A stretch of DNA of 64,000 bases, taken from contig NZ_JAUTAG010000001.1 in assembly GCF_030818255.1 (NCBI RefSeq), forward strand, positions 372,001 through 436,000, given 5' to 3'. Positions within the stretch are counted from its first letter, which is position 1. Every line of letters starts with the position of its first letter. The position numbers and the translations under genes were made by a program. The DNA comes from Microbacterium sp. SORGH_AS_0969 (GTDB lineage Bacteria; Actinomycetota; Actinomycetes; Actinomycetales; Microbacteriaceae). This document shows, piece by piece, positions 1 through 64,000 of this stretch. The notes under the pieces were generated by a model. That model searched no databases. It saw only the letters and a program-made list of their open reading frames with translations, and had not been told where the DNA came from.

Positions 1-30
1 CGGACCCTCCTCAAGCGAGGGCCGAGAAGA

Positions 31-56
31 ATGTATACATGCACTCGTACGAGTGC
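31..56. promoter_or_regulatory. Two adjacent perfect palindromes, putative operator
   Basis: A 10-bp perfect palindrome (ATGTATACAT, 31-40) abuts a 16-bp perfect palindrome (GCACTCGTACGAGTGC, 41-56). On the minus strand TATACAT resembles a -10 box, and a GAGGAGG ribosome-binding sequence lies at about 6-12, so a minus-strand gene probably starts just left of base 1. The palindromes would then sit in its promoter and suit a GntR- or TetR-type repressor. The target gene is outside the window. Confidence 0.45.
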
Positions 57-140
57 CACGGTATTGAGGAGTTAATCACCCGGCTGATTCGTCGCGATCA
101 CCACCGACCGAGACGGGTGTCCCGTCCGACCGGGGTTGAC

Positions 141-179
141 GGATGCCACGCCCCCGCGGCGCGTGGGGGCGTGGCATCC
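141..179. terminator. Hairpin terminator after the ABC exporter operon
   Basis: Perfect 15-bp stems (141-155 and 165-179) with a 9-nt loop lie 17 bp beyond the exporter stop codon. The outer stem bases are GGATGCC and GGCATCC, a pairing that recurs in other terminators of this window. There is no clear T-tract. Confidence 0.7.
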
Positions 180-195
180 GAGGGTCGGAGAGAGG

Positions 196-2013
196 TCAGA
201 CGAGCGATTCGCGCCAGGCGGCGTGGAGCTGGGCGAACTTGCCGGTGCCGGCGATGAGGGCGGCGGGTGTGTCGTCCTCGATGATGCGGCCGTGCTCCAT
301 CACCAGCACACGGTCGGCGATGGCCACCGTCGAGAGGCGGTGCGCGATGATGATCGCGGTGCGATCGGCGAGCAGGGTCTGCAGCGCATCCTGGATCTGG
401 CGTTCGCTCGGGATGTCGAGCGACGCCGTCGCTTCGTCGAGGATCAGCACGGCGGGGTTCGCCAGGAACGCGCGCGCGAACGAGATGAGCTGCCGCTGCC
501 CGGCCGAGACGCGGCCTCCGCGCTTGTTCACGTCGGTGTCGTAGCCGTCGGGCAGCTTCTCGATGAAGCTGTCGGCGCCCACCGCGCGCGCCGCGGCGCG
601 GATCTCGTCCATCGTGGCGTCGGGCTTTCCGAGGGCGATGTTGTCGGCCACCGTTCCGCTGAAGAGGTAGGCCTCCTGCGTGACCATGACGATCGCGCGG
701 CGCAGATCCTTCGGGTGCAGGCGGCGGAGATCGACGTCGTCGAGGGTGACCGCGCCCGCCGTGGGGTCGTAGAAGCGCGACACGAGCTTGGCCAACGTCG
801 ACTTACCCGCGCCGGTCGTGCCGACGAGGGCGATCGTCTGCCCCGCCGGAATGTCGAGCGAGAAGTTCGGCAGGATGACGCGGTCGTCGCTGTAGCCGAA
901 GGTGACCTCGTCGAAGCGGACGTGACCCTGGGCCTCCCACAGGTCGACCGGGTCGGTCGGGTCGGGAACCGTGGGCTCCTCCTCCAGCACGCCCGACACC
1001 TTCTCGAGCGCCGCCGTCGCCGACTGGTACGAGTTCAGGAAGAACGCGACCTCTTGCAGCGGCGAGAAGAAGTTGCGGACGTACAGCACGGCCGCCGTCA
1101 GCACACCGATCTCGAGCGGTCCCGCGATCACGCGGCCGCCGCCCCACAGCAGCACGACCGCCACCGACACCGCGGCGACCGCCATGATGCCGGGCTCGAA
1201 CGTGCCGAAGAGACGGATCGAGCGCATGTTGACGTCGCGGTAGTCGCCGGCGAGCTTGCCGAACTCCTCGTCGTTGCGGGGCTCTTTGCGGAACGCCTTC
1301 ACGGCCCGGATCCCCGTCATCGTCTCGACGAACTTCACGATCACCTGCGCGCTGATCACGCGCGACTCGCGGTAGATCACCTGCGAGCGGCGGTAGAACC
1401 AGCGCATGAGCAGGTACATCGGGATACCCATGACCGTCAGGATCAGCCCCGACTGCCAATCGATGAGGAACAGCGCGACCAGAGTGAACAGGCCGTAGAG
1501 CACGCCGGACACGAGCTCGTTGAGCCCGCCGTCGAGCAGCTCGCGGATGGTGTCGAGGTCGCTCGTCTGGCGCGAGATGATGCGCCCCGACGTGTAGGAC
1601 TCGTGAAACTCCAGGCTCAGCTTCTGCGTGTGCAGGAAGATGCGCTTGCGGAGGTCCAGCATCACCGCCTGGGTCAGCCGCGCGGCGACGACGACGTACC
1701 AGCCGATCAGGACGGCCCCGCCGACACCCGCCAAGAGGTAGATGCCCACGACGCCGATGGTCGGCATCCAATCGGCTCGATCGATCACCGCGGGCAGCGC
1801 GTTGTCGATGCCGTACGCGATCAGCGCGGGGCCGGCGACGCGGAGCGCGGTCGACACCACGAGGACGGCCGCCGCGAGGACGAGCTGCCACCGCAGGGGA
1901 GACACGAGCGAGCCGAGCAGACGCAGCGAGCGCTGACGGATCGCGCGGCTCTCGTCGCGCGTGTAGTCGGAGCGGTCTTCGCCGCTGGTTCCGGAGACGG
2001 TTGCGGTGCTCAT
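196..2013 (-). CDS. ABC exporter half-transporter, canonical ATPase subunit
   Basis: Type IV (ABCB-like) exporter half of 605 aa: a six-helix transmembrane domain (about residues 40-340) followed by a nucleotide-binding domain (about 365-600). Walker A is GTTGAGKST (398-406), the signature is SAGQRQL, and Walker B ends in [11 protein letters not shown] with the catalytic Glu, followed by the AHRLST H-loop. It overlaps the upstream half-transporter by 4 bp (ATGA), so the two are co-translated and almost certainly form a heterodimer. The signature has SAGQ rather than SGGQ, which in heterodimers is often the half that completes the degenerate site. Substrate unknown; lipid or multidrug export is typical of the family. 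Confidence 0.93.
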
Positions 2014-3875
2014 CGGGTCGCCTCCTTCTCGGTCAGGGTGTCGTCGTCATGTGCGCGGATCACGTCGATCGCACCGGTGCGCGCCTCGCGTTCCGCCTCT
2101 TCGAGGCTCGAGATGACGTATCGGTAGTGCTCGCTCTCGCGCAGCAGGTCGGAGTGAGCGCCGACGGCGGTCACCCGGCCGTTCTCGAGGAGCGCGACCC
2201 GGTCGGCGAGCGTCACCGTCGAGGGACGGTGCGCCACCACGAGGGCCGTCGTCTCACTGAGCACCTCACGCAGGGCGTCTTCGACGAGAGCTTCGGTGTC
2301 GACGTCGAGCGCCGACAGCGGATCGTCGAGCACCAGGACGGCCGGACGCGCCGCGACGGCGCGCGCGAGCGCGAGCCGCTGCCGCTGCCCACCGGACAGG
2401 CTCAGCCCCTCTTCGCCGATGACGGTGTCGAGGCCGTCGGGAAGGTCGAGGACGAAGTGCGCCTGTGCGACCTGCAGCGCCTCGCGCAGGATGCGGTCGG
2501 CTTCCGCCGAGCCGGGCTCGAGGTCTTCGCGGCCCAGCAGCACGTTCTCGCGCACCGTCTGCGAGAACAGCGTCGCGTCTTCGAACGCCATGCCCACGTG
2601 CCGGCGCAGTTCGGCGAGGGTCAGTTCGCGCACGTCGACGCCGTCGAGCAGCACGCGTCCACCGGTGACGTCGTACAGGCGTCCGGGCAGGGTCGTGAGC
2701 GTTGTCTTGCCGGATCCCGTGAGACCGACGAGAGCCATCGTCTCGCCGGGACGCAGCACCAGGTCGACGCCGTCGATGAGATCGGGCTCGGTGGCAGCGG
2801 CATCCTGATACCGGAAGTGCACACCCTCGAAGGTGAGCTCGCCCCGGGGCTCCGCGATGGTGCGGGGGTTCTCGGGATCGACGATCGTGTTCTGCTCGTC
2901 GAACACCTCGAAGATGCGGTCGGTCGCCGTGCGAGCGTCGAGGAGGAACGAGAAGAGGAAGCCGATCGACTCCATCGGCCAGCGCAGCACGGTCGCCATC
3001 GCGAAGAACGCGACGAGCTCGGCGACCTGGAGCTGTCCGAGCTGAGTCAGCACGATGCCGGCGCCGAGGCACACCGCGAAAGCGATGTCGGGCAGCAGCA
3101 CCAGGAAGAACCAGATCCAGCCGACGGCGCGGGCCTTGTCGATCTCGGTCTCGCGCAGCGACTCGGCCTGCCGCGTGAACTTCTGCAGGGCGTGCCGCCC
3201 CCGGCCGAAGGCCTTGAGGACACGGATGCCGTGGACGCTCTCTTCCACCGAGGTGGCGAGGTCGCCCGCTTGGTCTTGACTCTGACGGGTCAGGGCGCCG
3301 TAGCGCTTCTCGAAGCGGAAGCCGACGTAGATCACGGGGGCCGAGGTGACGAGGAACAGCGCACCGAGCAACCAGTGCCAGCGGAAGAGCAGGACCGCTC
3401 CGATCGCGATGGTCAGCAGGTTGACCACGAGCAGGATGACGCCGAAGGCGAGCCAGCGGCGGAGCATGCTGATGTCCTGCATCATGCGAGACAGCAGCTG
3501 GCCCGACTGCCAGCGGTCGTGGAACGCGACGGGCAGGCGCTGCAGGCGCGAGTAGAAGGACTGGCGCAGGTCGTACTCGACCTTGGTCGCCGGTGCGAGG
3601 ACGAACCAGCGGCGCAGCCACACCATGGCCGCCTCGGCGAGGCCGAGCGCGAGCACCGCGACCGACCCCCACACGAGGGCGGTGGGGTCGAGCGAGGCGA
3701 TGGGCCCGGCGACGATCTGCTCGAGCACCAGCGGGATCGCCAACGCCAGCAGGCTCGCGATGAGGGCCGTGACCGCACCCGCGATGAGGCGCGGGATGAC
3801 GGGACGCGCGATGGGCAGGAGCCGGGCGAGAGCGCGCGGGGTGGACAGGTGCGGGCGAGGCGAAGCGGAAGTCAT
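2010..3875 (-). CDS. ABC exporter half-transporter with degenerate Walker B
   Basis: Partner half-transporter of 621 aa with an N-terminal membrane domain and C-terminal ATPase domain. Walker A is GLTGSGKTT (384-392) and the signature is the canonical [14 protein letters not shown], but Walker B reads [12 protein letters not shown]: Asp replaces the catalytic Glu, as in the degenerate site of TM287/288-type heterodimers. ATP hydrolysis is therefore expected mainly at the other composite site. I chose the ATG at 3875 (MTSASPRPH) over the in-frame TTG three codons earlier, because GAGG lies just upstream. About 115 nt separate it from the small leader ORF upstream, with hairpins between, which suggests attenuation control. 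Confidence 0.92.
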
Positions 3876-3966
3876 GATCCTCAAGGGGTCGAAGCGAGCG
3901 CCGGGATCGGGCGCGGAAAGGGGATGCCGAAAGGCACCGGCATTCAGCCGGGACGGGCGCGGTGTG

Positions 3967-3982
3967 CGGCGCTCGAGCGCCG
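3967..3982 (-). promoter_or_regulatory. Palindromic hairpin between leader ORF and ABC exporter
   Basis: Perfect 16-bp palindrome CGGCGCTCGAGCGCCG begins 10 nt after the leader ORF stop. A second, weaker dyad (ATGCCG/CGGCAT arms, about 3923-3943) lies between it and the exporter start. Together with the leader ORF they have the layout of a translational or transcriptional attenuator. Function is inferred. Confidence 0.4.
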
Positions 3983-3992
3983 GCGTGAGGCC

Positions 3993-4070
3993 CTAGTGGC
4001 GCCCGTGAGGACGCGCGGAAAAGACGGAGGGCGCAGCGACACGGGCGACGGGGGCGTCGATGTGGTCCAT
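3993..4070 (-). CDS. 25-aa leader-peptide-like small ORF upstream of the ABC exporter
   Basis: A 25-codon ORF (MDHIDAPVARVAAPSVFSAR, then PHGRH and a TAG stop) preceded by an excellent ribosome-binding site, AAGGAGGATGCC-ATG. It lies on the exporter strand, about 115 nt upstream of its start and followed by a 16-bp palindrome. A TATCCT sequence near 4120 may be the -10 box. No known domain. It could be a regulatory leader peptide sensing ribosome stalling, as with drug-inducible resistance ABC genes, or simply a microprotein. The strong initiation site is the main reason to believe it is translated. Confidence 0.5.
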   Translation of the reverse strand: MDHIDAPVARVAAPSVFSARPHGRH

Positions 4071-4189
4071 GGCATCCTCCTTGAGATGAGCGGAAGCTGC
4101 CCGGGGGTGTGACAGCCCTTCAGGATATCTCTGAGCGAACGCCGAGGGCAAGAGCCGGTTCGAGACCAGGGGCCGCGCGACGCCCCCCC

Positions 4190-4684
4190 TCACGCCGCCT
4201 CGCGCTCCAGCAGACGCCGCTTGACGTCGGTCCCCCACGCGAATCCCCCCATCGTGCCGTCGCCGCGCAGGACGCGATGACAAGGCACGAAGAGGGCCGG
4301 AGCGTTACGGGCGCAGATGGATGCCGCCGCCCGGACGGCCGAGGGAGAACCGAGCGCCGCGGCGAAGCCGGTGTAGGTCAGCGGCGCGCCCGGGGTGATG
4401 CGGCGCAGGGCGTCCCACCCCGCTTGCTGAAGGGGCGTCCCGAACTGGCGCACCTCGACCGCGTCGATCGCGCTGAGGTCGCCGTCGTAATAGGCGCGCA
4501 CCGCTTCGGCCGCGGCGGTGGTGCCTTCGACGACCTCGTCGGGCCGGCGGTCGGGCCGAAGACGGGCGAGCACCGCCTCCGCGTCGGAGGTCCAGCCCGA
4601 GACGAGGACGCGTTCGTCGGCGTCGGCGAGGATCGCGAACGGTCCGTCGGGCGTATCGAGGAACTGCAGAGTCGAGGTACTCAT
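4190..4684 (-). CDS. ogt: Methylated-DNA--[protein]-cysteine S-methyltransferase
   Basis: Suicidal repair protein that transfers the methyl group of O6-methylguanine to its own cysteine. It has 164 aa, a usual length, with the active-site motif PCHRV (Cys135) and the preceding Asn/Ala-rich DNA-recognition helix ([20 protein letters not shown]; two overlapping stretches). Its start overlaps the stop of the Ada-AlkA gene by 4 bp, so the two form an alkylation-damage operon. The order (Ada-AlkA first) suggests induction by the upstream fusion protein, which carries the methyl-sensing domain. Confidence 0.95.
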
Positions 4685-6357
4685 CGGAGGGGCTCGCTTT
4701 CGGGTGCGGTGGGGAGGGGCGCGGAGGCGGTCGTACGGGACGCGGAGGCGACGGAGAGAAACGCCGGGTCGTCAGCGGATCGACGGCGCGACTTCTCGGG
4801 GGCAGACGGACGGCGGGTGGCGGCTTTCCCGGGCCGCCGCACCGCGGCTGCCGCCGCCGTTTCGGCGCCCGACAGCCGCCACGCCTGGGTGACGGGAGCG
4901 GCGTACCAGTAGTGAGCCATGGCGTAGCTGCGCCAGGGAGCCAGCCGCGCGGACCACTCCGTGAAGCCGACCGGGTCGGATGGCAGGCCCAGGGCTGCCG
5001 CTCCCGCTCGCGCCGCGACGTCGCCGGGAAGGAGGACGTCGGGATCGCCGAGGACCCTCATACGGACGTAGTCGGCCGTCCACGGGCCCACCCCGCGGAG
5101 GGCGAGGAGCCGCTCGCGCTGCTCGATGCCGTCGTCGCCCGGCCCGACTGTGAGGGAGCCGTCCGCCAGCGCTTCGGCGACGCTCACGATCGCCCGCATG
5201 CGGGCACCGGGACCGCGCAGCACCTCGAGTCCTCGATCGGCGATCGCCGCGGCATCCGGGAACAGGGTCAGCGGCTCGGGACCGATCGTGACCGACTCGC
5301 CGAGCTCCGCGGTCAGACGTCCCTGCATCGTGCGGGCGGAGGCCACACTGATCTGCTGGCCGATCATCGCGCGCAGGAGCATCTCGCCCGCGTCGATCGC
5401 GCCGGGAACGCGGACACCGGGGATCGCCGCCACGGCGGCGGCGAGCTCGGGATGCCGCGACAGCTCGGTGTCGACCGCCAGCGGATCTGCGTCGAGATCG
5501 AAGAGGCGACGCACCCGCGCGATGAGCGTGCCCAGGTCGGCGAGGGCGGTGAGGCGCGCACGCAGGCGCAGCCGGCCGTCGTCGGCGAGGCGCACCTCGA
5601 ACCACCCGGGCCCGCCGGGCAGGCGCACGACCCGCGCGAAAGACCGGTCGCCGCCGACCTCGACGCCCGGGATCGCGTGAGCCCGCATCCACCCGAAGAG
5701 ACCCGTGGTGTCGATCGGTCCGCGGACGGGCAGGGCGAGATCGATCTCGCCCGCGGAGGCCTCGGCCCCGGACGCCCGCGACCGCCGTGCGCGCAGCTCG
5801 CGCGGCGGCATCCCGAACACCTCTCCGATCGTCTCGGTGAATTGACGGATGCTGGAGAACCCGGCGGAGAAGGCGACATCGGCCGACGACAGGTCGGTGC
5901 CGACCAACAACGCACGGGCGGTGTGCGCGCGATGCGCGCGAGCCAGGGCGAGAGGCCCCGCCCCGAGCTCGGTGGTGAGGACACGGGTGAGGTGGCGCGG
6001 CGAGTACCCGAGCCGTCGCGCGAGCCCCGGCACCCCCTCGCGGTCGACCACGCCGTCGGCGATCAGGCGCATCGCCCGGGCGGCGACGTCGCCGCGCGCA
6101 TCCCACAGCGGTGAGCCCGGAGCGGCCTCGGGCAGACACCTCTTGCAGGCGCGATAGCCCGCTTCGTGCGCCGCCGCCGAGGTGGCGTAGAAGGTGACGT
6201 TCGCTTCTCTCGGCGTCCGTGCGGGGCAGCTCGGTCGGCAGTAGATTCCCGTCGACCGCACGGCCGTGACGAACTGCCCGTCGAAGCGCCGGTCGCGCGA
6301 CTGGATCGCGCGATAGCGCTCGGCAAAGCCCGGGGCGGTCGGAACGGGGAGGGTCAT
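4681..6357 (-). CDS. alkA: Ada-AlkA fusion: methyl-phosphotriester sensor and DNA-3-methyladenine glycosylase II
   Basis: 558-aa fusion. Residues 1-80 form the Ada zinc domain with Cys40, Cys44, Cys71 and Cys74; Cys40 matches the Ada methyl-acceptor cysteine. Residues about 95-180 are an AraC-type helix-turn-helix, and about 200-490 are AlkA (N-terminal TBP-like fold, then HhH-GPD with [11 protein letters not shown] and the catalytic Asp in LPGDVA). It should excise alkylated bases and, when methylated, activate transcription of its own operon with ogt. Start chosen at the ATG at 6357 rather than upstream codons, since the protein matches Ada from [11 protein letters not shown] 60-aa low-complexity Ala/Ser/Pro/Arg tail follows the glycosylase domain and is unusual. 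Confidence 0.93.
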
Positions 6358-6426
6358 GGCATCCACCCTGCCACCGACCTCCGACATCGGCTGGCGGAAA
6401 TCGGACACGAGGGTGGAGCCGATGTC

Positions 6427-6482
6427 GAGTGTCCAAGACACGCCGCAACGGGTGGGCCCGAAACGGCGTGTCGTGGACACTC
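6427..6482. repeat. Inverted-repeat element, GTGTCCAAGACAC family, copy 1
   Basis: Two 19-nt arms (6427-6445 GAGTGTCCAAGACACGCCG and 6464-6482) pair with one mismatch around an 18-nt loop. Two related elements occur at 58185-58331. It lies in the 168-bp gap between the MFS gene end and the alkA start. Possible extragenic palindrome, or an operator for the alkylation operon. Confidence 0.7.
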
Positions 6483-6525
6483 AGCGGGAGACGATGCGCG
6501 GCGCGCCGGGCCGGACGCCGATCCG

Positions 6526-7758: not shown

Positions 7759-7839
7759 GACCTCAGGATGCCGCGGGTAAGACATCGAGGGAAACGAACA
7801 GTTTCGATGGAAGTAATCGATTAGATCTATCATTGCGCC
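7759..7839. promoter_or_regulatory. Divergent MFS/LysR promoter region
   Basis: This 81-bp gap between divergent genes contains an AT-richer stretch (about 7803-7833) with the interrupted dyad TCGAT-GGAAGTA-ATCGA, a plausible LysR T-N11-A site. Assignment rests on position and symmetry only. Confidence 0.4.
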
Positions 7840-8709: not shown

Positions 8710-8721
8710 TGAGGCATCCGG

Positions 8722-8790
8722 GGTCGGGGCGCATCCGTCCGTTCGGGGCGTGAACATCGCGCCCCGAACGGACGATCACGCCCCGAACGC
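8722..8790. terminator. Bidirectional hairpin between convergent genes
   Basis: Perfect 15-bp stems CGTCCGTTCGGGGCG (8736-8750) and its complement (8760-8774) separated by 9 nt lie between the LysR stop and the secreted-protein stop, so this probably terminates both. Flanking TCGGGGCG and CGCCCCGAA words extend the symmetry. A diverged relative occurs at about 16243-16313. Confidence 0.7.
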
Positions 8791-18381: not shown

Positions 18382-18448
18382 CATAAACGCGATCTACGCA
18401 CATAAACACGCGCACCACGCGTTTATGCAAGCAAACAGCGTTTATGCC
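18382..18448. repeat. 67-bp palindrome-rich tandem repeat, copy 1
   Basis: Begins CATAAACGCGATC and ends GCGTTTATGCC; the ends are inverted (CATAAACGC/GCGTTTATG), with a nested inner pair (CATAAACACG/CGCGTTTATG). About 60 of 67 positions match the other copies. The AT-rich cores stand out in GC-rich surroundings. Confidence 0.85.
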
Positions 18449-18572
18449 GCGGCACTCCGCCCGCGCGGCACCCCGCGCCTCATCGAGGCATCCCAGCCCG
18501 CGGCACCGAGGCGCGCCGCCAGCGCGTGCCCACTCGCACACCGACGCGGGCCCAACCCGCCACGCCCACATC

Positions 18573-18639
18573 CATAAACGCGATCCACGCACATAAACAC
18601 GTGCCCCACGCGTTTATGCGAGCAAACGGCGTTTATGCC
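18573..18639. repeat. 67-bp palindrome-rich tandem repeat, copy 2
   Basis: Starts 191 bp after copy 1, with the same nested inverted TAAACG/CGTTTA boxes. Differences from copies 1 and 3 are single substitutions in the inner spacer. Confidence 0.85.
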
Positions 18640-18762
18640 GCCGCAGCCCGCCCCGCAGCACCCAGCGCGCCGCCAGCGCGGCCCGCCCTCGCACCGGCCA
18701 GAGCCCCGCCAACGCATGCCCGCTCGCACACCCGCGCGCCCCCAACCCGCCATGCCCACACC

Positions 18763-18829
18763 CATAAACGCGATCCACGCGCATAAACACGAGCACCACG
18801 CGTTTATGCGAGCAAACGGCGTTTATGCC
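18763..18829. repeat. 67-bp palindrome-rich tandem repeat, copy 3
   Basis: Starts 190 bp after copy 2. Only a few positions differ from copy 2. No fourth copy is visible before purH. Confidence 0.85.
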
Positions 18830-18968: not shown

Positions 18969-20579
18969 TCAGTGGAAGAAGTGACGCTCCCCGGTGAAGA
19001 ACATCGTGACGCCGGCGGCGCGCGCGGCGTCGATGACCTCGCCGTCGCGGACCGAGCCACCGGGCTGGATGATCGCCGAGATCCCGGCGTCGATCAGCAC
19101 CTGCGGGCCGTCGGCGAAGGGGAAGAAGGCGTCGGATGCCGCGATCGAACCGCGGGCACGGTCGCCCGCGCGCTCGACGGCGAGGCGGCACGAATCCACA
19201 CGGTTGACCTGCCCCATGCCGATGCCGACCGTGGCCGAAGCCTGCGCGAGCACGATCGCGTTCGACTTCACCGCGCGGCACGACTTCCACGCGAAGATCA
19301 GGCTCTCCATGTCGGCCTCGGCGGGACGCTCGCCCGAGACGAGCTCCCAGTCCTTCGCGACCGACTCGATGTCGTCGGGGAAGCGGTCGGCATCCTGCAG
19401 CAGCAGGCCACCCGAGACCAGGCGCACGTCCATGCGCTCCTGCTGCCAGTCGGTGGGCAGCTGCAGCACGCGGAGGTTCTTCTTGAGCTTAAACACCTCG
19501 AGCGCCTCGGGCTCGAAGTCGGGCGCGATGATCACCTCGGTGAAGATGTCGCGCAGGTTCTCCGCCATCTTGAGCGTCACCGTGCGGTTGGCCGCGATCA
19601 CGCCGCCGAATGCCGAGACGGGGTCGCACTCGTGCGCGCGCAGGTGCGCCGAGGCGATGGGGTCGAGCGCGTTGGGCGCCGCGACGGCGATGCCGCAGGG
19701 GTTCGCGTGCTTGATGATCGCGACGGCGGGCTTGACCATGTCGAAGGCGGCACGCAGGGCGGCGTCGGCGTCGACGTAGTTGTTGTACGACATCTCCTTG
19801 CCCTGCAACTGCGTCGCCTGGGCGATGCCGTGGCCGCCGACGCGCGTGTAGATCGCGGCGCGCTGGTGCGAGTTCTCGCCGTAGCGCAGGGTCGAGAGGC
19901 GCTCGGCCTGGATCGTCAGGTGCGCGGGCAGGTCGATGTCGTCACCGAGCGTTCCCTCGGCGAACCACGTCGACACGGCGGTGTCGTACGCGGCCGTGTG
20001 CGAGAACGCGCGGGCGGCGAGCTCGCGGCGCTGCACCAGCGAGGTCCCGCCGTCGCTCTGTAGGGCCGAGATGATCGCGGGGTACGACTCGGGCGAGACG
20101 ACGATGGCGACGTTGGCATGGTTCTTCGCCGAGGCGCGCACCATCGCGGGGCCGCCGATGTCGATCTGCTCCACGACGTCGTCGCCCTCGGCCCCGGATG
20201 CCACGGTCTCGACGAACGGGTAGAGGTTCACGACCACGAGCTCGAACGGCAGGATGCCGAGCTCTTCGAGCTGCGCTTCGTGACCGGCCAGGCGAAGGTC
20301 GGCGAGGAGACCCGCGTGGACGTTCGGGTGGAGCGTCTTCACGCGACCGTCGAGCGACTCGGGGAAGCCGGTCACCGCCGAGACGTCGGTGACGTCATAA
20401 CCGGCCTCGCGCAGCAGCGTCGCCGAGCCGCCCGTCGAGACGATCTCGACCCCGGCCGCCGCGAGAGCGGCTCCGAGCTCGAGAAGGCCGGTCTTGTCGC
20501 TCACCGACACCAGCGCGCGGCGGATCGGGACGATGTCGCGGGGACGGTAGTCGGCGGGGTCGTGGCGGGGTCCGGCCAT
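18969..20579 (-). CDS. purH: Bifunctional AICAR formyltransferase / IMP cyclohydrolase
   Basis: 536 aa catalysing the last two steps of purine synthesis: formylation of AICAR and ring closure to IMP. The N-terminal MGS-like cyclohydrolase domain (about 18-160) contains [21 protein letters not shown] and [15 protein letters not shown]. The transformylase domain holds KHANPCG and the terminal [13 protein letters not shown]...[10 protein letters not shown] pattern. It follows purN by 55 bp on the same strand, the standard actinobacterial order. Confidence 0.97.
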
Positions 20580-25058: not shown

Positions 25059-26279
25059 TCAGGCGCGGCGGCGAGCGCCCGCGAGCAGGTCGCGCACCGC
25101 GGCGAGAAGGCCGCGCCGTGAGGTCGCTGAGTCCGTCGACGGGTCCGGCCCGGCCGCACCACCGGAGGCTTCGACAAGCTCAGCCACCTCCGCACACCCC
25201 GGTCCCTGAGCCTGTCGAAGGGACCGAGACCCATCGACACCACCGGAGGCCACGACAAGCTCAGCCACCTCCGCACACCCCGGTCCCTGAGCCTGTCGAA
25301 GGGACCGAGACCCATCGAGACCACCGGAGGCATCGACAAGCTCAGCCACCTCCACACACCCAGGTCCCTGAGCCTGTCGAAGGGACCGAGACCCATCGAC
25401 ACCACCGGAGGCCACGACAAGCTCAGCCACCTCCACACACCCAGGTCCCTGAGCCTGTCGAAGGGACCGAGACCCATCGAGACCACCGGAGGCATCGACA
25501 AGCTCAGCCACCTCTACACACCCAGGTCCCTGAGCCTGTCGAAGGGACCGAGACCCATCGAGACCACCGGAGGCTCCGACAAGCTCAGCCACCTCCGCCG
25601 GGGCGACCTTCCGCGCCGCCGCCCACCTCTCCCACACGACCGTCGCGAGACGCGGGTCCGCGCCGATCGGGGCGGTGGTGAGATCGGCATCCGCCTTCTC
25701 GATCACCCGGGAGAAGTGCCCGGGCGCGAGGACGTAGCTCGCCGCGACGGTACGGTGACCGGCTTTGCGCGCCACGTGCACGGCATCCGGGATCCGCGGT
25801 TCGGATGCCGCGGCATACGCCGCCACGACGGGACCGGCGATCCCGGCCTCCGTCATCAGCTCGGCCATCCGCTCGACGTCCACGACCGCGCCGGGGCGCG
25901 TGGAGCCCGCCGCGGCGAGCACCACGGTGTCGTCCGCGCCGGCGCCGGTCGCGCGCACGCGGTCCACGAGGATCTCGGCGAGCACGGGGTGCGGGCCGAG
26001 CGCGGGAGCCACGGGAAGGCCGTCCGCCGCCTCCACGAGGTCAACCTCGGTGTGGTACCCCGTCGACAGCAGCAGCGGCACGATGACGATGTCGTCCGTG
26101 CGCTCGCGCGCGGCCGCGACGACGTCCGTGACGTAGGGCCCGTGCACGTCGACGTAGGCCTCGTGCACCTCGACGCCCGGGGGCGCGGTCTCGCGCAGCA
26201 CCTCGAGCAGCTCGCGCACGACGACGCGCCCCTCCTCGAACCTCGTGCCGTGCGCGCAGGCGATGAGCACCGCGGTCAT
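25059..26279 (-). CDS. Sirohydrochlorin ferrochelatase (CbiX/SirB-like) with repeat-derived C-terminus
   Basis: Inserts the metal into sirohydrochlorin to make siroheme, the cofactor of the nitrite reductase in this operon. Residues 1-225 form the chelatase domain (ACAHGTRFEEG with the metal-binding His, PLLLSTGYHTEVDL, YVLAPGHFSRV). Residues about 226-378 are five 27-aa repeats (SLRQAQGPGCVEVAELV and variants) encoded by exact 81-bp palindromic DNA repeats, then a short tail ending LLAGARRRA. At 406 aa it is well above the family's usual 230-270. Start at 26279 overlaps the hemD stop by 4 bp. Confidence 0.85.
   Translation of the reverse strand: MTAVLIACAHGTRFEEGRVVVRELLEVLRETAPPGVEVHEAYVDVHGPYVTDVVAAARERTDDIVIVPLLLSTGYHTEVDLVEAADGLPVAPALGPHPVLAEILVDRVRATGAGADDTVVLAAAGSTRPGAVVDVERMAELMTEAGIAGPVVAAYAAASEPRIPDAVHVARKAGHRTVAASYVLAPGHFSRVIEKADADLTTAPIGADPRLATVVWERWAAARKVAPAEVAELVGASGGLDGSRSLRQAQGPGCVEVAELVDASGGLDGSRSLRQAQGPGCVEVAELVVASGGVDGSRSLRQAQGPGCVEVAELVDASGGLDGSRSLRQAQGPGCAEVAELVVASGGVDGSRSLRQAQGPGCAEVAELVEASGGAAGPDPSTDSATSRRGLLAAVRDLLAGARRRA
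25146..25600. repeat. Tandem array of 81-bp palindromic repeats inside a gene
   Basis: GGTCCCTGAG occurs at 25201, 25282, 25363, 25444 and 25525, exactly 81 bp apart. Each unit has two hairpins: GGTCCCT/AGGGACC arms around GAGCCTGTCGA, and a second around TCGACAAGCTCAGCCACC. Partial units lie on both sides. The 81-bp length keeps the host reading frame open. The same hairpin types occur at 31863-32038. Confidence 0.92.
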
Positions 26280-32046: not shown

Positions 32047-32484
32047 TTACTCGACGGGCTCCAGCACGAACACCTCGATGCGGCGCTCGGTCTTCTTCTG
32101 GTACTCGTCGTAGTCGGGCCAGACCTCGGTCGCGTAGCCCCACCACTCCTCGCGCTCGGCCCCCTCGGCCTGGTGCGCGTCGTACTCCTTCTTCACGTCG
32201 CCGTCCTGCAGCGCGACGCGAGGGTTCTTAACGAGGTTGTAGAACCACGCGGGGTGCGCGGGAGCCCCACCCTTGGATGCCACGACCGCGTACTTTCCGT
32301 CGTGCTCGACCCGCATCAGCGCGGTCTTGCGGAGCCCTCCGGTTTTGGCCCCGACCGTGGTGAGGACGATGATGGGTACGCCCCGCAGCTCGGCGGCTTC
32401 CCGGCCTCCCGAGGCCTCGAACGCCTCGGCCTGCTGGCGGGCCCACTCGCTGGTGCTGGGCAGATACTCTCCTGAGAGCGACAT
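32047..32484 (-). CDS. Deazaflavin-dependent nitroreductase-family oxidoreductase
   Basis: 145-aa split-barrel protein of the Ddn-like family, which uses F420 or a related flavin. Typical motifs are [40 protein letters not shown] and ALQDGDV. Start at 32484 ([10 protein letters not shown]). It is divergent from the purine permease with 66 bp between them. Substrate unknown. Confidence 0.88.
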
Positions 32485-55209: not shown

Positions 55210-55259
55210 GCGGGATCACGCATCCCCCCAGGGCACACCGACTGCGAAGAAGGATTCGG

Positions 55260-56411: not shown

Positions 56412-56429
56412 CCTCGATACGCCCGACGA

Positions 56430-56453
56430 ACCGATAGTCGTGGGGTTATCGGT
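56430..56453. promoter_or_regulatory. ACCGATA/TATCGGT dyad upstream of the aldehyde dehydrogenase
   Basis: ACCGATA (56430-56436) and TATCGGT (56447-56453) are perfect inverted arms 10 bp apart, 55 bp before the gene. The left arm continues as CGATAGTCG, the core also seen in the ABC promoter region. Likely operator of a block-specific regulator. Confidence 0.55.
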
Positions 56454-56507
56454 TCTCACCGATCTACCTGTTAGTCCTCGTTCACCCCTCTTCTTAGGCT
56501 GAAAATC

Positions 56508-57998
56508 ATGACGAACTCCGCATCGTTGCATCCGTCGTCCACCGATGACATCGAGCCGCCCCGCGAACTGCGCGCGCGCAACCCCCGCTCCGGCGAGATC
56601 GACTATGTGGTCACTCCGCCGACGCCGGCGGAGGTCACCGACCTGGCCGCCTCGCTTCGCGAAGGTCAGCGCCCGTGGCGCGACCTCGGGCTCTCCGGCC
56701 GGATCGCAGCGCTCTCGGCATGGGCCGACGCGATCGAGCGCGACGTCGCGCGGATCGCCCGCGCCGAGGGCACCGATACCGCGCGTGTGCGCGTCTCGTC
56801 CGAGGTGCCCTACATGGTCGCGGCCGCGGTCCGGGATTGGTGCGCCAAAGCACCCGCGCTCATCGACGCCGCGACGCTGGAAGGTCGCTCGAGCGTGATG
56901 AGCGACGTCACCTACACGACGCAGTTCGAGCCCTACGGTCTCCTCGGGATCATCAGCCCGTGGAACCATCCCTTCCTCCTGTCGTCCACCGACGCGATCC
57001 CCGCGCTGCTCGCCGGATGCGCCGTCCTGGTGAAGCCGAGCGAAGTCACGCCCCGTTTCATCGAGCCCGTGATGTCCACCATCCGGAGCGTGCCCGAGCT
57101 CGCCTCGGTCTTCGCTTACATCCCCGGAGCCGCCGACGTGGGGCAGGCTGTCATCGACAATGTGGATGCGCTCTGCTTCACGGGGAGCGTGTCGACGGGC
57201 CGCCTGATCGCTGCTGCGTGCGCTTCGCGTTTCATCCCCGCCTTCCTTGAGCTCGGCGGCAAGGATGCCGCGATCGTCACCGCCACCGCGGACGTCGCGT
57301 CGGCCGCGTCCGCCATTCTCAAGGGGTCGGTGCACAACACGGGCCAGCTGTGCTTCTCGACCGAGCGCATCTACGTCGACCGCACCATCTACGAGCCGTT
57401 CGTCGCCGAACTCGTCCGCCAGTCAGAATCGCTCGAGCTGAGCTACCCCGACCCGACGCACGGCCACCTGGGGCCGTTCATTCTCGAGCGCCAAGCGGAG
57501 ATCGTCGACGATCATCTTCGTGATGCCGTCGTCCGCGGCGCGACCATCCTCACCGGCGGTACCAGCGTCGAGCTCGGCGGCGGCCGGTACATGCGACCCA
57601 CCGTGCTCGTGGGCGTCGACCACTCGATGCGCGTGATGACCGAGGAGACGTTCGGACCGGTGATGCCGGTGATGCCCTACGAGAGCATCGACGAGGCCGT
57701 CGAACTCGCGAACGACTCCGAGTTCGGCCTGTCCGGAGCGGTCATCTCCGGCAGCGCCGAGGAGTCCGACGCCGTCGCGCGCCGCCTCGACGCCGGTGCC
57801 ATCAGTCTGCAGGACACGTCGCTGACGATCGGCATCATGCGCGACGTCGAGAAGGTCGCCTTCAAGGCCTCGGGTCTCGGTGGCTCGCGGATGGGGCCGG
57901 CGGGCCTGCTGCGTTTCCTGCGCAAGAAGGCCCTGATCCTGCGCACGGGTCCGGTGGTCTCCATGGAGGCGCTCGCCGAGCACAATCGCCCCGTGTGA
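56508..57998 (+). CDS. Aldehyde dehydrogenase family protein
   Basis: 496-aa NAD(P)-dependent aldehyde dehydrogenase. SPWNHPFLL, FTGSVSTGRLIA, catalytic Glu in LELGGKDA and catalytic Cys in NTGQLCFSTERIYV are all present. It would oxidise an aldehyde formed by one of the two alcohol dehydrogenases to an acid, possibly the substrate of the CoA ligase or of the hydroxylase. It has its own promoter-like upstream region, unlike the tightly packed mhp genes. Confidence 0.93.
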   Translation: MTNSASLHPSSTDDIEPPRELRARNPRSGEIDYVVTPPTPAEVTDLAASLREGQRPWRDLGLSGRIAALSAWADAIERDVARIARAEGTDTARVRVSSEVPYMVAAAVRDWCAKAPALIDAATLEGRSSVMSDVTYTTQFEPYGLLGIISPWNHPFLLSSTDAIPALLAGCAVLVKPSEVTPRFIEPVMSTIRSVPELASVFAYIPGAADVGQAVIDNVDALCFTGSVSTGRLIAAACASRFIPAFLELGGKDAAIVTATADVASAASAILKGSVHNTGQLCFSTERIYVDRTIYEPFVAELVRQSESLELSYPDPTHGHLGPFILERQAEIVDDHLRDAVVRGATILTGGTSVELGGGRYMRPTVLVGVDHSMRVMTEETFGPVMPVMPYESIDEAVELANDSEFGLSGAVISGSAEESDAVARRLDAGAISLQDTSLTIGIMRDVEKVAFKASGLGGSRMGPAGLLRFLRKKALILRTGPVVSMEALAEHNRPV

Positions 57999-58008
57999 GC
58001 CCACCCCG

Positions 58009-58046
58009 GAAGGGGCCTGGATGCCATGGCATCCAGGCCCCTTCCC
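58009..58046 (+). terminator. Terminator of the aldehyde dehydrogenase gene
   Basis: 38-bp perfect palindrome with outer GGAAGGGGCCTGGATGCC and its complement, 11 bp after the stop codon. GGATGCC and GGCATCC face each other across the centre. Confidence 0.8.
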
Positions 58047-58184
58047 ATTGCATGTGCGCCGAACGCATACGATCCAGTCGAGCGCGTACGCACCGGGTGA
58101 CCCCACCGCGTGCGCTCGACCCGGTCGTGTGCGCTCGCGAGCGCGCCGTCCCGCCCGTCCGCGCCCGCGGGGGATGTCCCCGGC

Positions 58185-58240
58185 GAGCGTCCGAGACACG
58201 CCGCATGCGTCCCGACCGGCACCGCGTGTCTTGGACACTC
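58185..58240. repeat. GTGTCCAAGACAC inverted-repeat element, copy 2
   Basis: Left arm 58185-58203 (GAGCGTCCGAGACACGCCG) and right arm 58223-58240 (CGCGTGTCTTGGACACTC), imperfectly complementary. Same family as 6427-6482. Confidence 0.65.
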
Positions 58241-58278
58241 GACGCCGGAACCGCCGCCGGTGTCGCCGCCGCAGACTC

Positions 58279-58331
58279 GGTGTCCAGGACGCGCGGATGC
58301 GCTGCGGCACCGTCCGCGCGTCTTGGACACT
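58279..58331. repeat. GTGTCCAAGACAC inverted-repeat element, copy 3
   Basis: Left arm 58279-58297 (GGTGTCCAGGACGCGCGGA) pairs with right arm 58313-58331 with two mismatches. It lies 94 bp after copy 2 in the same orientation. Confidence 0.65.
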
Positions 58332-58357
58332 GAACCAAGCCTCACCCGCAACGCAAA

Positions 58358-58385
58358 GGGCCCGGATGCCATGGCATCCGGGCCC
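58358..58385 (-). terminator. Terminator of sucD
   Basis: 28-bp perfect palindrome GGGCCCGGATGCCATGG and complement, 14 bp past the sucD stop. Again built on facing GGATGCC/GGCATCC. Confidence 0.8.
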
Positions 58386-58399
58386 CGATAGAGAAGCGC

Positions 58400-60483
<2,084 letters not shown>

Positions 60484-60602
60484 GGACAATCCTTCGCTGG
60501 GCGATCGGTGGTGGGAGGAGGCAAAAGTCTCTCGATATCAAGAGATCTGCGCCAATCGACAAGCCTACTAGACAGGTCCACCGCCCCCGACCCCAGCCCG
60601 TC

Positions 60603-60642
60603 CGAACGGAGGGGGTCCCGGATGCCGAGACCCCTCCGTTCG
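60603..60642 (-). terminator. Terminator of the small membrane-protein gene
   Basis: Arms CGAACGGAGGGGGTC (60603-60617) and GACCCCTCCGTTCG (60629-60642), one bulge, downstream of the 75-aa gene and upstream of sucC. It separates the two transcription units. Confidence 0.7.
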
Positions 60643-60655
60643 CTCGGGAACAGGC

Positions 60656-60883
60656 TCAGGAGTCGCGGCGCGGCGCAGCCCCGAGGCGGATGCGACGCAC
60701 GTTGAGCCAGTAGAAGACCGGGGTCATCAGGACCACGATGGCCGACATCGCGATGACGATGACAAGTGTCTGGTGCTGACCGAGCAGCGCGAAGACGAGG
60801 TAGCCGAGGCTGGAGGCGAGGGCCATGACGAAGCTGTTGAGCCAGATGCGGCCCTTGCTGGGGGTTGCTGCGGGGGTGGACAC
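60656..60883 (-). CDS. Small two-helix membrane protein
   Basis: 75 aa starting with GTG at 60883, with GAAGGAG 6 nt upstream. Two transmembrane helices (about residues 16-37 and 40-60) and a basic C-terminus (RRIRLGAAPRRDS). No family recognised. It lies between the ABC permease gene and sucC on the same strand. Confidence 0.7.
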   Translation of the reverse strand: MSTPAATPSKGRIWLNSFVMALASSLGYLVFALLGQHQTLVIVIAMSAIVVLMTPVFYWLNVRRIRLGAAPRRDS

Positions 60884-60954
60884 GGGTTCTCCTTCGGTGA
60901 GGTGTCGTCGGTCCGCGCGGGTGCGGGTCGACATGTGGGGTCGGTCGAGCGAGG

Positions 60955-62511
60955 TCAGCGCGGGGAGAAAGCGGCGAGGAGCCGATCGGGATGTCGATCG
61001 AGGTAGTCTCCGCTGACCCGGATCGCCACGACGGCGCCGACCACGGCCAGCACCAGCGCCGCGAGGAGCACCACGTCCACCGGCAGGAACGCCTGGACGA
61101 GGGTGCTCAGCCATCCGGCCGCGAGAACGAGGCCGATGGCGGCACCGGTCGCGCCGAGCGCGCGGACCACCAGCGTGCTGCGGTCCCCCTGCGGAGCCTC
61201 CTGGTCGTACGCGTTCCGCGAGCTCGAGACCGCGCCGACGGCGAAAGACAGGGCCAGAGCGGCGAGCGCGGAGATGAGCGCGGTCGGAATCTGGTCGGCT
61301 GTCCCGCTCGCGATCCCGAGACCGATGGTGACCGCGGCCACCGCGGGAACGAGGAACAGCGATACGGCCAGCATCTTGCCCCGCAGCACGGCGGCGAGCG
61401 ACGCACCGGTCTGTACGGTCAGTTCGATCCCCCGCCCATCCCAGGCGAAGAGGTTCAGCAGCACGCCCGACGCCATCGCCACGGTTCCGATGGCCGCGGC
61501 GAACGGGAGCCCCGTCGTATGCACCTGCGCCACAGCGAACATCACGCCGACGACGGGGCCGACAATGAGGAACTGTGCGGCACGCGGCGCCCGGAAGAAG
61601 TAGTAGCGCAACTGCTGGCTCGCCGCCCCGAGGGCCGCACCGGCCGAGAACGGGCGCAGCACCGGCGGCACGAGCGGCAGCTCGCGCGCCGAACGGTGGT
61701 GGGGGGATGCCACAGCGCGAGCCGTGTGGCCCTTGACGTGCCGACGCAGCGCGACGCCCCAGAGCAGAAGCGCGAGCACGATCGTCACGACCACGATCCC
61801 GAACCGCGCGAGCGCCCCGGGCAGGTCGCCCGCATCGAGGACGTAGCCGACGGCCGCTGCCGCCCCGGGAGGCGTCCAGGTCAAGACCGTGACGAGAATC
61901 GCCCCCGCGTTCTCAGCCGCCCCGAGGATCGGAGCGAACACGTGCGGCAGAACGTAGATCGAGACCACCACGAGGCTCGAGAGGACGACGGCCAGATCGC
62001 GTCCGCGTCGCGCAGTCAGCGCCTCCGCGAACAGGGCGCGCACGGCGTACGACGTCGCCGCGCACATCACGGTGAACAGCAGCCCCGCCGCAACCGCCGC
62101 GAGCCGGCTGGCCAGATCGACGTGGACCTGCGCGACGCCGCCGATCGCGGTGAGGAACGTCGCAGCCGCCGTGGGCGAGAACAATCCGCCGAGGAGCAGG
62201 CCGCTCACCTGCTGCGTCCGGCTGAGCGGGTATTGCTCCAGGACCGTGGGGTCGATGATGTTCGCGATCGGCAGCGGCGTGGTGATGGGGAGCACGGCCC
62301 ACCCGACGAACAGCGCCACGAACAGCAGGAGCACGAGAAGGTCGCCGAACGCCTCGAGACCGGAGTCGAGCGTCGCCACGAGCGCTCCGCCGCACAGCCC
62401 CACGACGATGCCGAGCGCCCAGCCGAGCGCGAAGGTGGCGATGCCGAGAGCGGAGGCGCGCGCGCCCCCGATCTGGATCGCGAGCCTCAGGCGGGCGAGG
62501 ACGAGAGCCAT
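60955..62511 (-). CDS. ABC-2-like exporter permease
   Basis: 518-aa polytopic protein with about 12 hydrophobic segments and no soluble domain; basic patches lie between helices 6 and 7 (LRRHVKGHTARAVAS). It overlaps the upstream ATPase gene by 25 bp, so both act as one exporter. I recognise the type (large two-half permeases paired with CcmA-like ATPases) but not a substrate. Confidence 0.85.
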   Translation of the reverse strand: MALVLARLRLAIQIGGARASALGIATFALGWALGIVVGLCGGALVATLDSGLEAFGDLLVLLLFVALFVGWAVLPITTPLPIANIIDPTVLEQYPLSRTQQVSGLLLGGLFSPTAAATFLTAIGGVAQVHVDLASRLAAVAAGLLFTVMCAATSYAVRALFAEALTARRGRDLAVVLSSLVVVSIYVLPHVFAPILGAAENAGAILVTVLTWTPPGAAAAVGYVLDAGDLPGALARFGIVVVTIVLALLLWGVALRRHVKGHTARAVASPHHRSARELPLVPPVLRPFSAGAALGAASQQLRYYFFRAPRAAQFLIVGPVVGVMFAVAQVHTTGLPFAAAIGTVAMASGVLLNLFAWDGRGIELTVQTGASLAAVLRGKMLAVSLFLVPAVAAVTIGLGIASGTADQIPTALISALAALALSFAVGAVSSSRNAYDQEAPQGDRSTLVVRALGATGAAIGLVLAAGWLSTLVQAFLPVDVVLLAALVLAVVGAVVAIRVSGDYLDRHPDRLLAAFSPR

Positions 62512-63251
62512 GCGAGATCCCCCTCCGCGAGGTCGCGGCCGCCGACGATGTCGACGAACGCCTCTTCCAACGAACCGTTGGGCGCGAGTTCGGCCACGGT
62601 GCCCTCGGCGACGAGGGTGCCCTTGGCGATGATGGCCACGCGGTCGCACAGCTTCTGGACCACGTCGAGAACGTGGCTCGAGAAGACCACGGTGCCGCCG
62701 CCCTGGCGGAAGCGCTGCAGCATCTGCTCCATGACCTGGGTGTTGACGGGGTCCAGCGCCCCGAACGGCTCGTCGAGGATCAGCACGCGGGGGCTGTGCA
62801 GCATCGCCACGGCTAGGCCGACGCGTTTGGTCATGCCGAGCGAGAAGTCGGCGATGGGACGCCCGGCATCGGCTTCCAGGTCGAGCACGCGAAGCAGATC
62901 GTCTCCGCGGCTGCGAATGTCCGCGGATGCCATTCCGCGCAGCATTCCCGCATAGTCGAGCATTTCGCGTGCGGTGAGGCGTCCGAACAGCGGCGGATTG
63001 TCGGCGACATATCCGAGAAGGGCCTTCGCATGCCGGGGGTTGGGCCATACCGAGACTCCCGCGACCTCGATCGTGCCGGCATCCGGCTCGAGGAGACCGG
63101 TGATCATCCGGATCGACGTGGTCTTGCCTGCACCGTTCGGCCCGGCGATGCCGTAGAACGAACCCTGCGGAATGGTGAGGTTCAGACCGTCGACGCTGGT
63201 CACGTCGCCGAACTTCTTCACCACACCCGCAACCTGAATAGCCCCTGTCAT
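62487..63251 (-). CDS. ABC transporter ATP-binding protein (CcmA-like)
   Basis: 254 aa: Walker A GPNGAGKTTSI, an SLGMTKRVGLAVAM signature variant (LGMTK in place of LSGGQ), Walker B VLILDEPFGALD and SSHVLDVV switch His. ATG at 63251 (MTGAIQVAGV). No ribosome-binding site is obvious, and TATTCT lies about 13 nt before the ATG, so the mRNA may be leaderless. An IS element sits about 110 bp upstream. Confidence 0.92.
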   Translation of the reverse strand: MTGAIQVAGVVKKFGDVTSVDGLNLTIPQGSFYGIAGPNGAGKTTSIRMITGLLEPDAGTIEVAGVSVWPNPRHAKALLGYVADNPPLFGRLTAREMLDYAGMLRGMASADIRSRGDDLLRVLDLEADAGRPIADFSLGMTKRVGLAVAMLHSPRVLILDEPFGALDPVNTQVMEQMLQRFRQGGGTVVFSSHVLDVVQKLCDRVAIIAKGTLVAEGTVAELAPNGSLEEAFVDIVGGRDLAEGDLAWLSSSPA

Positions 63252-63356
63252 ATCGCTGAGAATAGGGGAAGAATGCGGTGCGATTGTGACGTTCTGGCAA
63301 ACTACCTCGCGAACTTTCCACCCGCCGTGTTTCTCGAGCACAAACGCACGGGTCGG

Positions 63357-64000
63357 CTAGGGCGTGTCTGACAATGTTTTGGTCCAGGTGATGGTGGCGT
63401 GGATGAGGACGGCGGCGCGGAATACGACCGCTAACTTGTCGTAGCGGGTGGCGAGGCCTCGCCATTGCTTGGTGTGGCAAAACCGCCGCTCGATGACGTT
63501 GCGGTTGCGGTAGTCATCGGCGTCGAGCCCGACGGGCCTGCCGCCGCGGGATCCGCGGCGTTTGCGGTGACCTTGCTGGTCACGCGGTTCCGGGATCACC
63601 GCCTTGATTCCCCGGCCGCGCAGGTGCGCTCGGATCGCGCGCGACGAGTACGCCTTGTCGCCGCGGACCGCATTCGGACGTGTGCGAGGCCGTCCGACCG
63701 GTCGGGTCACGCGCAGCTGCTCCAGCATCGGGATCAGCATCGGTGAATCACCAGCCTGGCCGGGAGTGATCACGGTGACCAGCGGAAACCCGTTGCCGTC
63801 GACGAGTTGATGGATCTTCGTCGACAGACCACCTCTCGAGCGGCCGACGCCGTGATCAGGCGGCTCGACGGTCAGATTCGTGTAATTCGATCCAGCCCCC
63901 TGTGGGGCGGGTCGTGTTCGTTGCGTGCTGATGCGCGCGAGCGATCGTGGAATCCACCGACACCGACCAGTCCACCATCCCTTCGGCGTCGGCCTGGGCG
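63357..64000 (-). CDS. IS5-family transposase, partial at window edge, two frames
   Basis: DDE transposase of the IS5 family, IS427-like group. The C-terminal frame (63357 to about 63900) reads PPDHGVGRSRGGLSTKIHQL, VRGDKAYSSRAIR, VIERRFCHTKQWRGLATRYD and ends LSDTP; VDS, RGDKAYSS and VIER carry the three DDE regions. The upstream 100 bp is in another frame (DWSVSVDSTIARAHQHATNT). The frames meet near 63896-63905. Members of this group often split the transposase over two frames, so this may be programmed shifting or a mutation. The N-terminus is beyond the window. Confidence 0.88.
   Translation of the reverse strand, partial: PRPTPKGWWTGRCRWIPRSLARISTQRTRPAPQGAGSNYTNLTVEPPDHGVGRSRGGLSTKIHQLVDGNGFPLVTVITPGQAGDSPMLIPMLEQLRVTRPVGRPRTRPNAVRGDKAYSSRAIRAHLRGRGIKAVIPEPRDQQGHRKRRGSRGGRPVGLDADDYRNRNVIERRFCHTKQWRGLATRYDKLAVVFRAAVLIHATITWTKTLSDTP
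63357..64000. mobile_element. IS5-family insertion sequence, right part truncated by window
   Basis: The left end is GGCGTGTCTGACAATG at 63361, typical of IS5 terminal repeats, preceded by CTAG (63357-63360), the usual target duplication of the IS427 group. The other end lies outside the window. The transposase TAG stop uses bases of this CTAG, so the target supplies the stop codon. Confidence 0.85.

Follow-up and report, generated by a model that had tools for sequence, protein, structure and literature searches.

GGATGCCR, an over-used octamer with lineage-specific variants in Microbacterium and its family, as a candidate uptake-sequence-like self tag

Why does a single seven-letter word, GGATGCC (GGCATCC on the other strand), recur so often in the DNA of Microbacterium sp. 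SORGH_AS_0969? The question arises from a 64,000-nucleotide stretch of this actinobacterium (the window, positions 372001–436000 of the 3.94-Mb single-contig genome), in which a sequence-only reading had noted about 90 copies where about 15 were expected, had likened the word to the DNA uptake sequences of Neisseria and Pasteurellaceae, and had held a Chi-like, segregation or methylation role to be equally possible. Here we describe the word as an octamer, GGATGCCR (R, G or A), which on the anatomy set out below is probably a genome-wide, uptake-sequence-like self tag kept by uptake-biased recombination.

Counting bore out the earlier estimate, giving 98 copies in the window, divided about 50:50 between the strands, versus a mean of 15.69 (maximum 31) in 100 dinucleotide shuffles.

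Positions 1–64000, both strands: 98 copies of GGATGCC, the next base being G or A in 93 of 98, scattered within and between genes.

An order-3 Markov model expects 20.8 copies in the window, and under this model GGATGCC has the highest z-score of all 7-mers. Expectations rise at higher orders (42.2 at order 4, 77.8 at order 5) because words inside GGATGCC are themselves enriched. The whole genome contains 6,527 copies (3,259 forward, 3,268 reverse) versus 385 (165 and 220) of the reversed word, which served as the control for whole-genome counts. Twenty evenly spaced stretches of 20 kb held 678 copies, where Markov models of orders 1–3 expect 85–128, order 4 expects 288 and order 5 expects 493; a second sample comprised 20 further independent stretches. 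One stretch of the first sample (L083), which overlaps the window, was left out of the first codon shuffle, the densities inside and outside open reading frames (ORFs) and the facing-pair counts given below.

The base 3′ of the heptamer was a purine (G or A) in 640 of the 677 first-sample copies and in 650 of the 703 second-sample copies (in the window A 33, C 2, G 60, T 3), hence the unit is an octamer; the other flanking positions, over 20 stretches, carried little information and no further shared sequence. When synonymous codons were permuted within each ORF, a procedure that keeps the protein and the gene's codon set, 320 ORFs with 584 coding copies gave a mean of 145.6 (maximum 168) over 30 shuffles, and a replicate on fresh stretches gave 531 seen versus 141 expected. 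In the first shuffle GGATGCCG was seen 408 times (81 expected) and GGATGCCA 153 times (16 expected), versus 15 (40) for GGATGCCC and 8 (7) for GGATGCCT, with the remaining one-letter neighbours of the octamer at 0–1.44 of expectation; in the replicate GGATGCCT was somewhat up (21 versus 9). Both gene orientations shared the coding excess (276 copies sense, 308 antisense), which lay mainly in the frames that allow the word by synonymous choice (27.8-fold and 6.7-fold).

This over-use has a DNA-level, not a protein-level, basis. GCA makes up 5.6% of alanine codons across 627 called ORFs (39 genome stretches and the window), and alanine before TCC was written as GCA in 297 of 373 cases after a G-ending codon versus 29 of 207 after other codons. 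Likewise, aspartate before GCC was GAT in 441 of 538 cases after a G-ending codon versus 105 of 708 otherwise. Codon choice therefore depends on the neighbouring base, which indicates that the DNA word is favoured and not the peptide, as had been proposed from GATGCC (Asp-Ala) and GCATCC (Ala-Ser, with its rare GCA). It is scarcely conceivable that the word simply reflects codon-pair usage, amino-acid-pair usage, low-order composition or a dispersed mobile repeat. The order-5 Markov model, with its inner 6-mers, expects 493 of the 678 copies and so covers part of the excess, whereas the codon shuffles yield only about a quarter (146 of 584; 141 of 531). Dependence on the base before the codon pair, occurrence on both gene strands and flat flanks thus speak against both a codon-pair effect and a longer repeat, and we consider codon, codon-pair and low-order composition to be ruled out by the shuffles and base-context counts, and a longer dispersed repeat by the flat flanks.

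Strand bias, another of the suggested checks, was absent. Over the 40 stretches one strand carried 663 copies and the other 718, with a per-stretch heterogeneity chi-squared of 24.9 versus about 94 expected at 60:40 per stretch and about 375 at 75:25, and forward and reverse counts were near equal in other genomes of the family too (whole counts, not by replichore). Chi sites, read by RecBCD or AddAB, are over-used, octamer-like and species-specific words concentrated in the core genome, and a Chi-like recombination signal for a break-repair helicase-nuclease would also fit the catabolic block and the phages described below, in both of which density is low. GGATGCCR, unlike Chi, lacks strand polarity in every test, and the palindromic variant GGATCC, found in four genomes, could not be read in one direction only, leaving a Chi-like role distinctly improbable. 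A chromosome-organisation or segregation site, either like the FtsK orienting polar sequences (KOPS) or bound by a nucleoid protein, would fit the high, even coverage and the near-random spacing (mean 559 bp, coefficient of variation 1.04). However, KOPS-like function needs a polarity that none of the 40 stretches showed; about 1.7 copies per kb, eight set letters and change within a genus would be unusual for a nucleoid site; and the facing pairs described next are not predicted, making this explanation more doubtful still. Polar roles of either the Chi or KOPS kind, which had been held equally possible, were thus rejected on the missing strand bias and the palindromic variant.

Copies face one another more often than chance allows. 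At gaps of up to 9 bp there were 26 facing pairs versus 6.4 in shifted controls (maximum 13) and 3 back-to-back pairs, and up to 45 bp there were 61 versus 29 (maximum 48) and 35 back-to-back. Facing pairs with a stem of at least 10 bp were concentrated just after genes: 15 of 23 lay within 60 nt after a stop codon, versus 4 of 38 shorter-stem pairs, 93 of 1,458 sites overall and 4.6% of positions drawn at random. Across 74 named Microbacterium loci (six other-dialect loci being left out) there were 82 facing versus 26 back-to-back pairs, and 32 versus 0 at short gaps, these loci being orthologous and not independent. The three stems named by the sequence-only reading are all present, each 16–20 bp past the stop of a called ORF.

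Positions 141–179: GGATGCC and GGCATCC face each other with 25 bp between them, and base pairing extends 8 bp inwards and 1 bp outwards; located 16 bp past the stop codon of the minus-strand ABC transporter ORF 196–2013.
Positions 58008–58045: GGATGCCATGGCATCC, which is two facing octamers GGATGCCA, at 58019–58034, with base pairing that extends 11 bp outwards; located 20 bp past the stop codon of the plus-strand aldehyde dehydrogenase ORF 56508–57998.
Positions 58358–58385: GGATGCCATGGCATCC at 58364–58379, with base pairing that extends 6 bp outwards; located 20 bp past the stop codon of the minus-strand ORF 58400–59521 (CoA_binding and Ligase_CoA domains).

The first is a terminator-like hairpin in which no T run was seen. 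ORF 58400–59521 adjoins an ATP-grasp/Ligase_CoA ORF (59320–60489), and the two are probably sucD and sucC.

Relatives for comparison were obtained through one gene of the window.

Positions 18969–20579, minus strand: purH, used as the query for placing the genome and for fetching 80 named loci.

By purH the closest named relatives are Microbacterium testaceum NS283 (95% DNA identity) and M. hydrothermale. Site conservation was scored on BLAST segments, leaving out loci with fewer than five aligned octamers; global MAFFT alignment of the 20-kb loci was dropped, its identities being poor because of rearrangements. The word is conserved between related strains: at 82–90% identity the exact octamer was kept in 402 of 602 cases (67%) versus 17,032 of 43,378 (39%) for composition-matched octamers, and one-letter-neighbour octamers were kept in 318 of 820. 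At 77–82% identity, a band that includes other dialects, the figures were 201 of 713, 19,668 of 79,227 and 573 of 2,004, respectively, the relatives in these counts not being independent. Hence sites persist in the short term and turn over in the longer term, with density still high.

GGATGCC was present in all 34 further genomes of the genus, with 1,273–6,796 copies versus about 268–386 of the reversed word (ratio about 4.8–24), and 23 genomes from other families of the order had 541–2,007 copies (ratio about 1.3–3.5). Among 199 genomes of the family (85 genera, with small overlaps with the genus set) the ratio ranged from 0.9 (both g73) to 25 (G114, which enriches GGATGCC without the limit of the eighth base to R). 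A scan of the Microbacteriaceae for dialects showed that another word is often strong where GGATGCC is weak.

GGATCC/CGGATCCG: Microbacterium sp. 8M (G257), Microbacterium sp. ASV81 (G256) and G220; also G091, in another genus.
GGATGCGG: PS02066 (G255) and a lake metagenome-assembled genome (L037).
CGGATGGC: M. oryzae (G258).
GGATTCGG: Microbacterium sp. T2.11-28 (L033, 12 kb only).
GCAGGATC: G104.
GCGGATC: G108, with few ORFs called and the word unconfirmed by codon shuffle.
GGAGGCGC: G092.
GTATGCCG: G051 (L150–L151), from another family of the order; 24 versus 1.3, and close to GGATGCCG.

In a cross table of nine words and 19 samples, the ratio of each word to its expectation was 3.4–18 in the genomes that favour it and mostly 0–2 in the others, with GCAGGAT at 3.1 in G258 and 3.3 in G092, GGATGCC at 3.7 in L033 and a few other values just above 2. 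The palindromes GGATCC and CGGATCCG are counted twice, once on each strand, in the shuffles and dialect scans, and their site counts were taken from the cross table. Site densities were comparable with that of GGATGCC (about 1.7 per kb), at 1.6–2.4 per kb for GGATCC and 1.6 for GGATGCGG, and most dialect words are built on GGAT. G051 was the sole genome with a dominant octamer among eight outgroup samples. Four further genera, sampled at 40 kb each (G071, G073, G090 and G102), had no dominant word, no clear word emerged from the scan of G081 (only five ORFs called) and L080, and 12 of the 80 named loci were labelled as having none at z-scores of up to 5 on about 20 kb, where power is low. In the purH phylogeny both GGATCC loci group in a single clade nested within GGATGCC lineages, with the other variants placed apart, hence the genus has switched words repeatedly.

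Dialects that change between relatives also suit a methylation-linked word, in which an orphan methyltransferase would mark the word or part of it, the mark would be useful and its copies selected, and a change of enzyme would change the dialect. GGATCC is a classic palindromic target, the R of GGATGCCR resembles the degenerate letter of such an enzyme, and a PF01555 methyltransferase was found in all 24 genomes searched. The match was strong (E < 1e-38) in 22 of 24 and missing from G271, the densest GGATGCC genome among 18 counted, and 15 PF01555 sequences, from all dialects and one word-less genome, were about 54–90% identical (rough identities of stop-to-stop ORFs) with no grouping by dialect. 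The D12 type, PF02086, which we take to be the class of Dam and FokI, occurred in five of 24 genomes and not in that of the window (these two were the methyltransferase families searched). As an observation in its own right, the PF01555 gene (L197; orthologues L198–L208 and L214–L216), kept in 22 of 24 genomes, has a variable insert after its DPPFNTGR motif. The closest precedent is the cyanobacterial highly iterated palindrome HIP1 (GCGATCGC), which is likewise a dispersed, over-used and orientation-free octamer, replaced in exceptional relatives by methyltransferase-matching words (PMC4390886; papers are cited by PubMed Central, PMC, number). HIP1 is palindromic and its variants track methyltransferases (PMC4390886), whereas GGATGCCR is non-palindromic and the two families searched do not track it. 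Methylation motifs of Microbacterium sp. Clip185 are said to have been placed in REBASE. For the two families searched, the methylation role allowed by the sequence-only reading is weakened; it is the strongest of the rival explanations, and we regard it as unlikely.

Foreign DNA carries fewer copies or none in excess. The window contains a block of low density.

Positions 32047–57998: 18 copies, 0.69 per kb versus 2.22 before and 1.5 after, with lower GC content.

Its genes include a transporter, a ring-hydroxylase, a luciferase-like monooxygenase, an AMP-binding protein, a LysR regulator and an aldehyde dehydrogenase, and the block was probably acquired recently. Neither this block nor the preference at the eighth base figured in the sequence-only reading. 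Density climbs with GC content over the 40 stretches (Spearman 0.63), which bears only indirectly on foreign DNA. The Microbacterium phages Min1, SanaSana, Lynlen and Quenya had 16, 6, 15 and 10 copies of GGATGCC versus 12.8, 10.0, 10.2 and 10.4 expected, placing the four together at background (47 versus 43.4). Separately, GGATCC is avoided in the M. foliorum phages SanaSana (L152), Lynlen (L153) and Quenya (L154), with 1, 4 and 0 copies versus about 14 expected, and is at expectation in Min1 (26 versus 27.4).

The search for com genes that had been suggested found ComEC and, directly before it, ComEA (SLBB and HHH_3 domains), along with one strong secretion ATPase (T2SSE) and a Flp pilin (family DUF4244). 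After the pilin come two small ORFs called TadE-like from their position and N-terminal motif. Across the family ComEC was present in 195 of 199 genomes; for Flp pilin the count was 192 of 199, or 178 of 179 when good genomes alone are considered. Being near-universal, ComEC and the pilin fit a shared uptake system and cannot single it out as the cause. Micrococcus luteus needs Flp pili and ComEA/ComEC homologues for transformation (PMC6370729), and the comEA, comEC and flp/tad genes found here resemble its competence pilus system (PMC6370729; PMC4322843). For M. luteus no sequence preference is mentioned in the excerpts available, and the term "uptake sequence" does not occur in PMC4322843 or PMC8467076. 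Two freshwater Microbacteriaceae express flp/tad and com genes, one of them responding to darkness (PMC8591293).

A side observation concerns the pilin gene itself, which is split near profile positions 20–27 in several genera. The halves lie about 8–31 kb apart in G097 (L211), G115 (L212), G164 (L210), G175 (L209) and G260 (L179–L180); G220 (L177/L181) has the C-terminal half only, beside an unrelated ORF, and G074 (L213) has an intact pilin and an extra C-terminal half about 5 kb away. Between the halves are large serine recombinases in G115, G164 and G175 and a small resolvase in G260, and the arrangement suggests a site of repeated integration within a competence gene, comparable with that of comYC prophages (PMC4774983).

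We return to the proposal that GGATGCCR is an uptake-sequence-like tag, which we favour because the word is over-used in both orientations, forms terminator-like pairs, is excluded from foreign DNA and has dialects that share a core, a combination that matches the DNA uptake sequences (DUS) of Neisseriaceae. In such a scheme a natural-transformation receptor would prefer fragments carrying GGATGCCR, tagged alleles would be imported and recombined at a higher rate, and copies would accumulate wherever protein sequence permits, on either strand. Facing pairs may then have been co-opted as terminator-like hairpins, and drift in receptor specificity could leave related lineages with dialects, mostly of a constant GGAT and a changed remainder. 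We infer that the uptake machinery includes a protein able to read the word, that Microbacterium would be naturally transformable and that uptake-biased recombination would maintain the word. The likeness first drawn by the sequence-only reading holds for the anatomy (over-use, pairs, dialects and depletion in foreign DNA), whereas the competence genes are present yet do not discriminate.

The uptake signal sequences (USS) of Pasteurellaceae have longer degenerate flanks, and no longer flank motif was seen around GGATGCCR in 20 stretches; word and family also differ. Thousands of dispersed copies, tied to competence in the Pasteurellaceae, are a shared feature (PMC1939737; PMC2346458). Closer is the Neisseriaceae DUS, likewise a short over-used word on both strands, in and between genes, with facing-pair hairpins near terminators and a constant core, mostly GGAT here (PMC3630211). 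Neisseriaceae dialects share a constant 5′-CTG-3′ core, and inverted pairs occur in all dialect genomes (PMC3630211). Unlike the Neisseriaceae, which have a type IVa pilus with ComP, these are Actinobacteria with a Flp/Tad pilus, and the present word, known from sequence alone, differs further in its roughly 1.7 copies per kb, the absence of any visible intergenic excess and one palindromic dialect.

Several points weigh against an uptake tag. Density was 1.66 per kb outside called ORFs versus 1.71 inside (the outside class being mixed, as the ORF caller misses genes), hence no general intergenic excess of the kind described for Neisseria was seen, such an excess being a usual rather than a defining trait of the Neisseria DUS. 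The octamer shows a sharpness that a graded uptake motif might lack. Not every dialect conforms, as GGAGGCGC (G092) has no GGAT, and the words of G108 and G104 carry it further along. ComEC and Flp pilin also occur in the genomes without a dominant word (G071, G073, G090 and G102). The small TadE-like ORFs had no Pfam match and no receptor was identified; comparison of these ORFs by eye between dialects gave no receptor candidate beyond position. Literature searches found no report of natural transformation in Microbacterium, and no uptake word in Actinobacteria was reported among the matches listed (in a search without most subscription journals). A full-text search for the word on both strands returned unrelated papers only, and "uptake sequence" together with "Microbacteriaceae" gave no match. 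Furthermore, the words that Elhai described in cyanobacteria are just as dispersed and as free of orientation, although they follow methyltransferases (PMC4390886).

Other repeats occur in the window. An array of 81-bp units at 25173–25587 contains GACAAGCTCA, six times at 81-bp steps, and CTGAGCCTGTCGAAG; words related to these occur here and there in the genome samples as well. Downstream of purH, at 18382–18827, are three units spaced at about 190 bp, and in each of them one strand has two copies of GCGTTTATG and the opposite strand a single copy. Rfam and ARAGORN scans of the 64-kb window gave no match, and a plasmid search with one window protein gave no Microbacterium record among the matches listed.

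Sequence-specific DNA uptake has been described for Pasteurellaceae and Neisseriaceae (PMC1939737). We see an even chance that the Microbacteriaceae are a third uptake-sequence family, the first in Actinobacteria and in single-membrane cells, in which the Flp/Tad pilus would read GGATGCCR and at least five further dialects, one of them palindromic, would act as recombination barriers between lineages (GGATCC, GGATGCGG, CGGATGGC, GGATTCGG and GCAGGATC, and possibly GCGGATC, GGAGGCGC and, in another family, GTATGCCG). A word that runs through the family at about 1.7 per kb, with lineage-specific variants, calls for an explanation even if uptake does not account for it. If uptake is the cause, this large plant- and soil-associated actinobacterial family, with dialects changing inside one genus, would provide independent replicates for the origin and upkeep of uptake words, for species barriers and for a DNA-reading pilus protein, and the words would predict which DNA transforms these hard-to-engineer bacteria.

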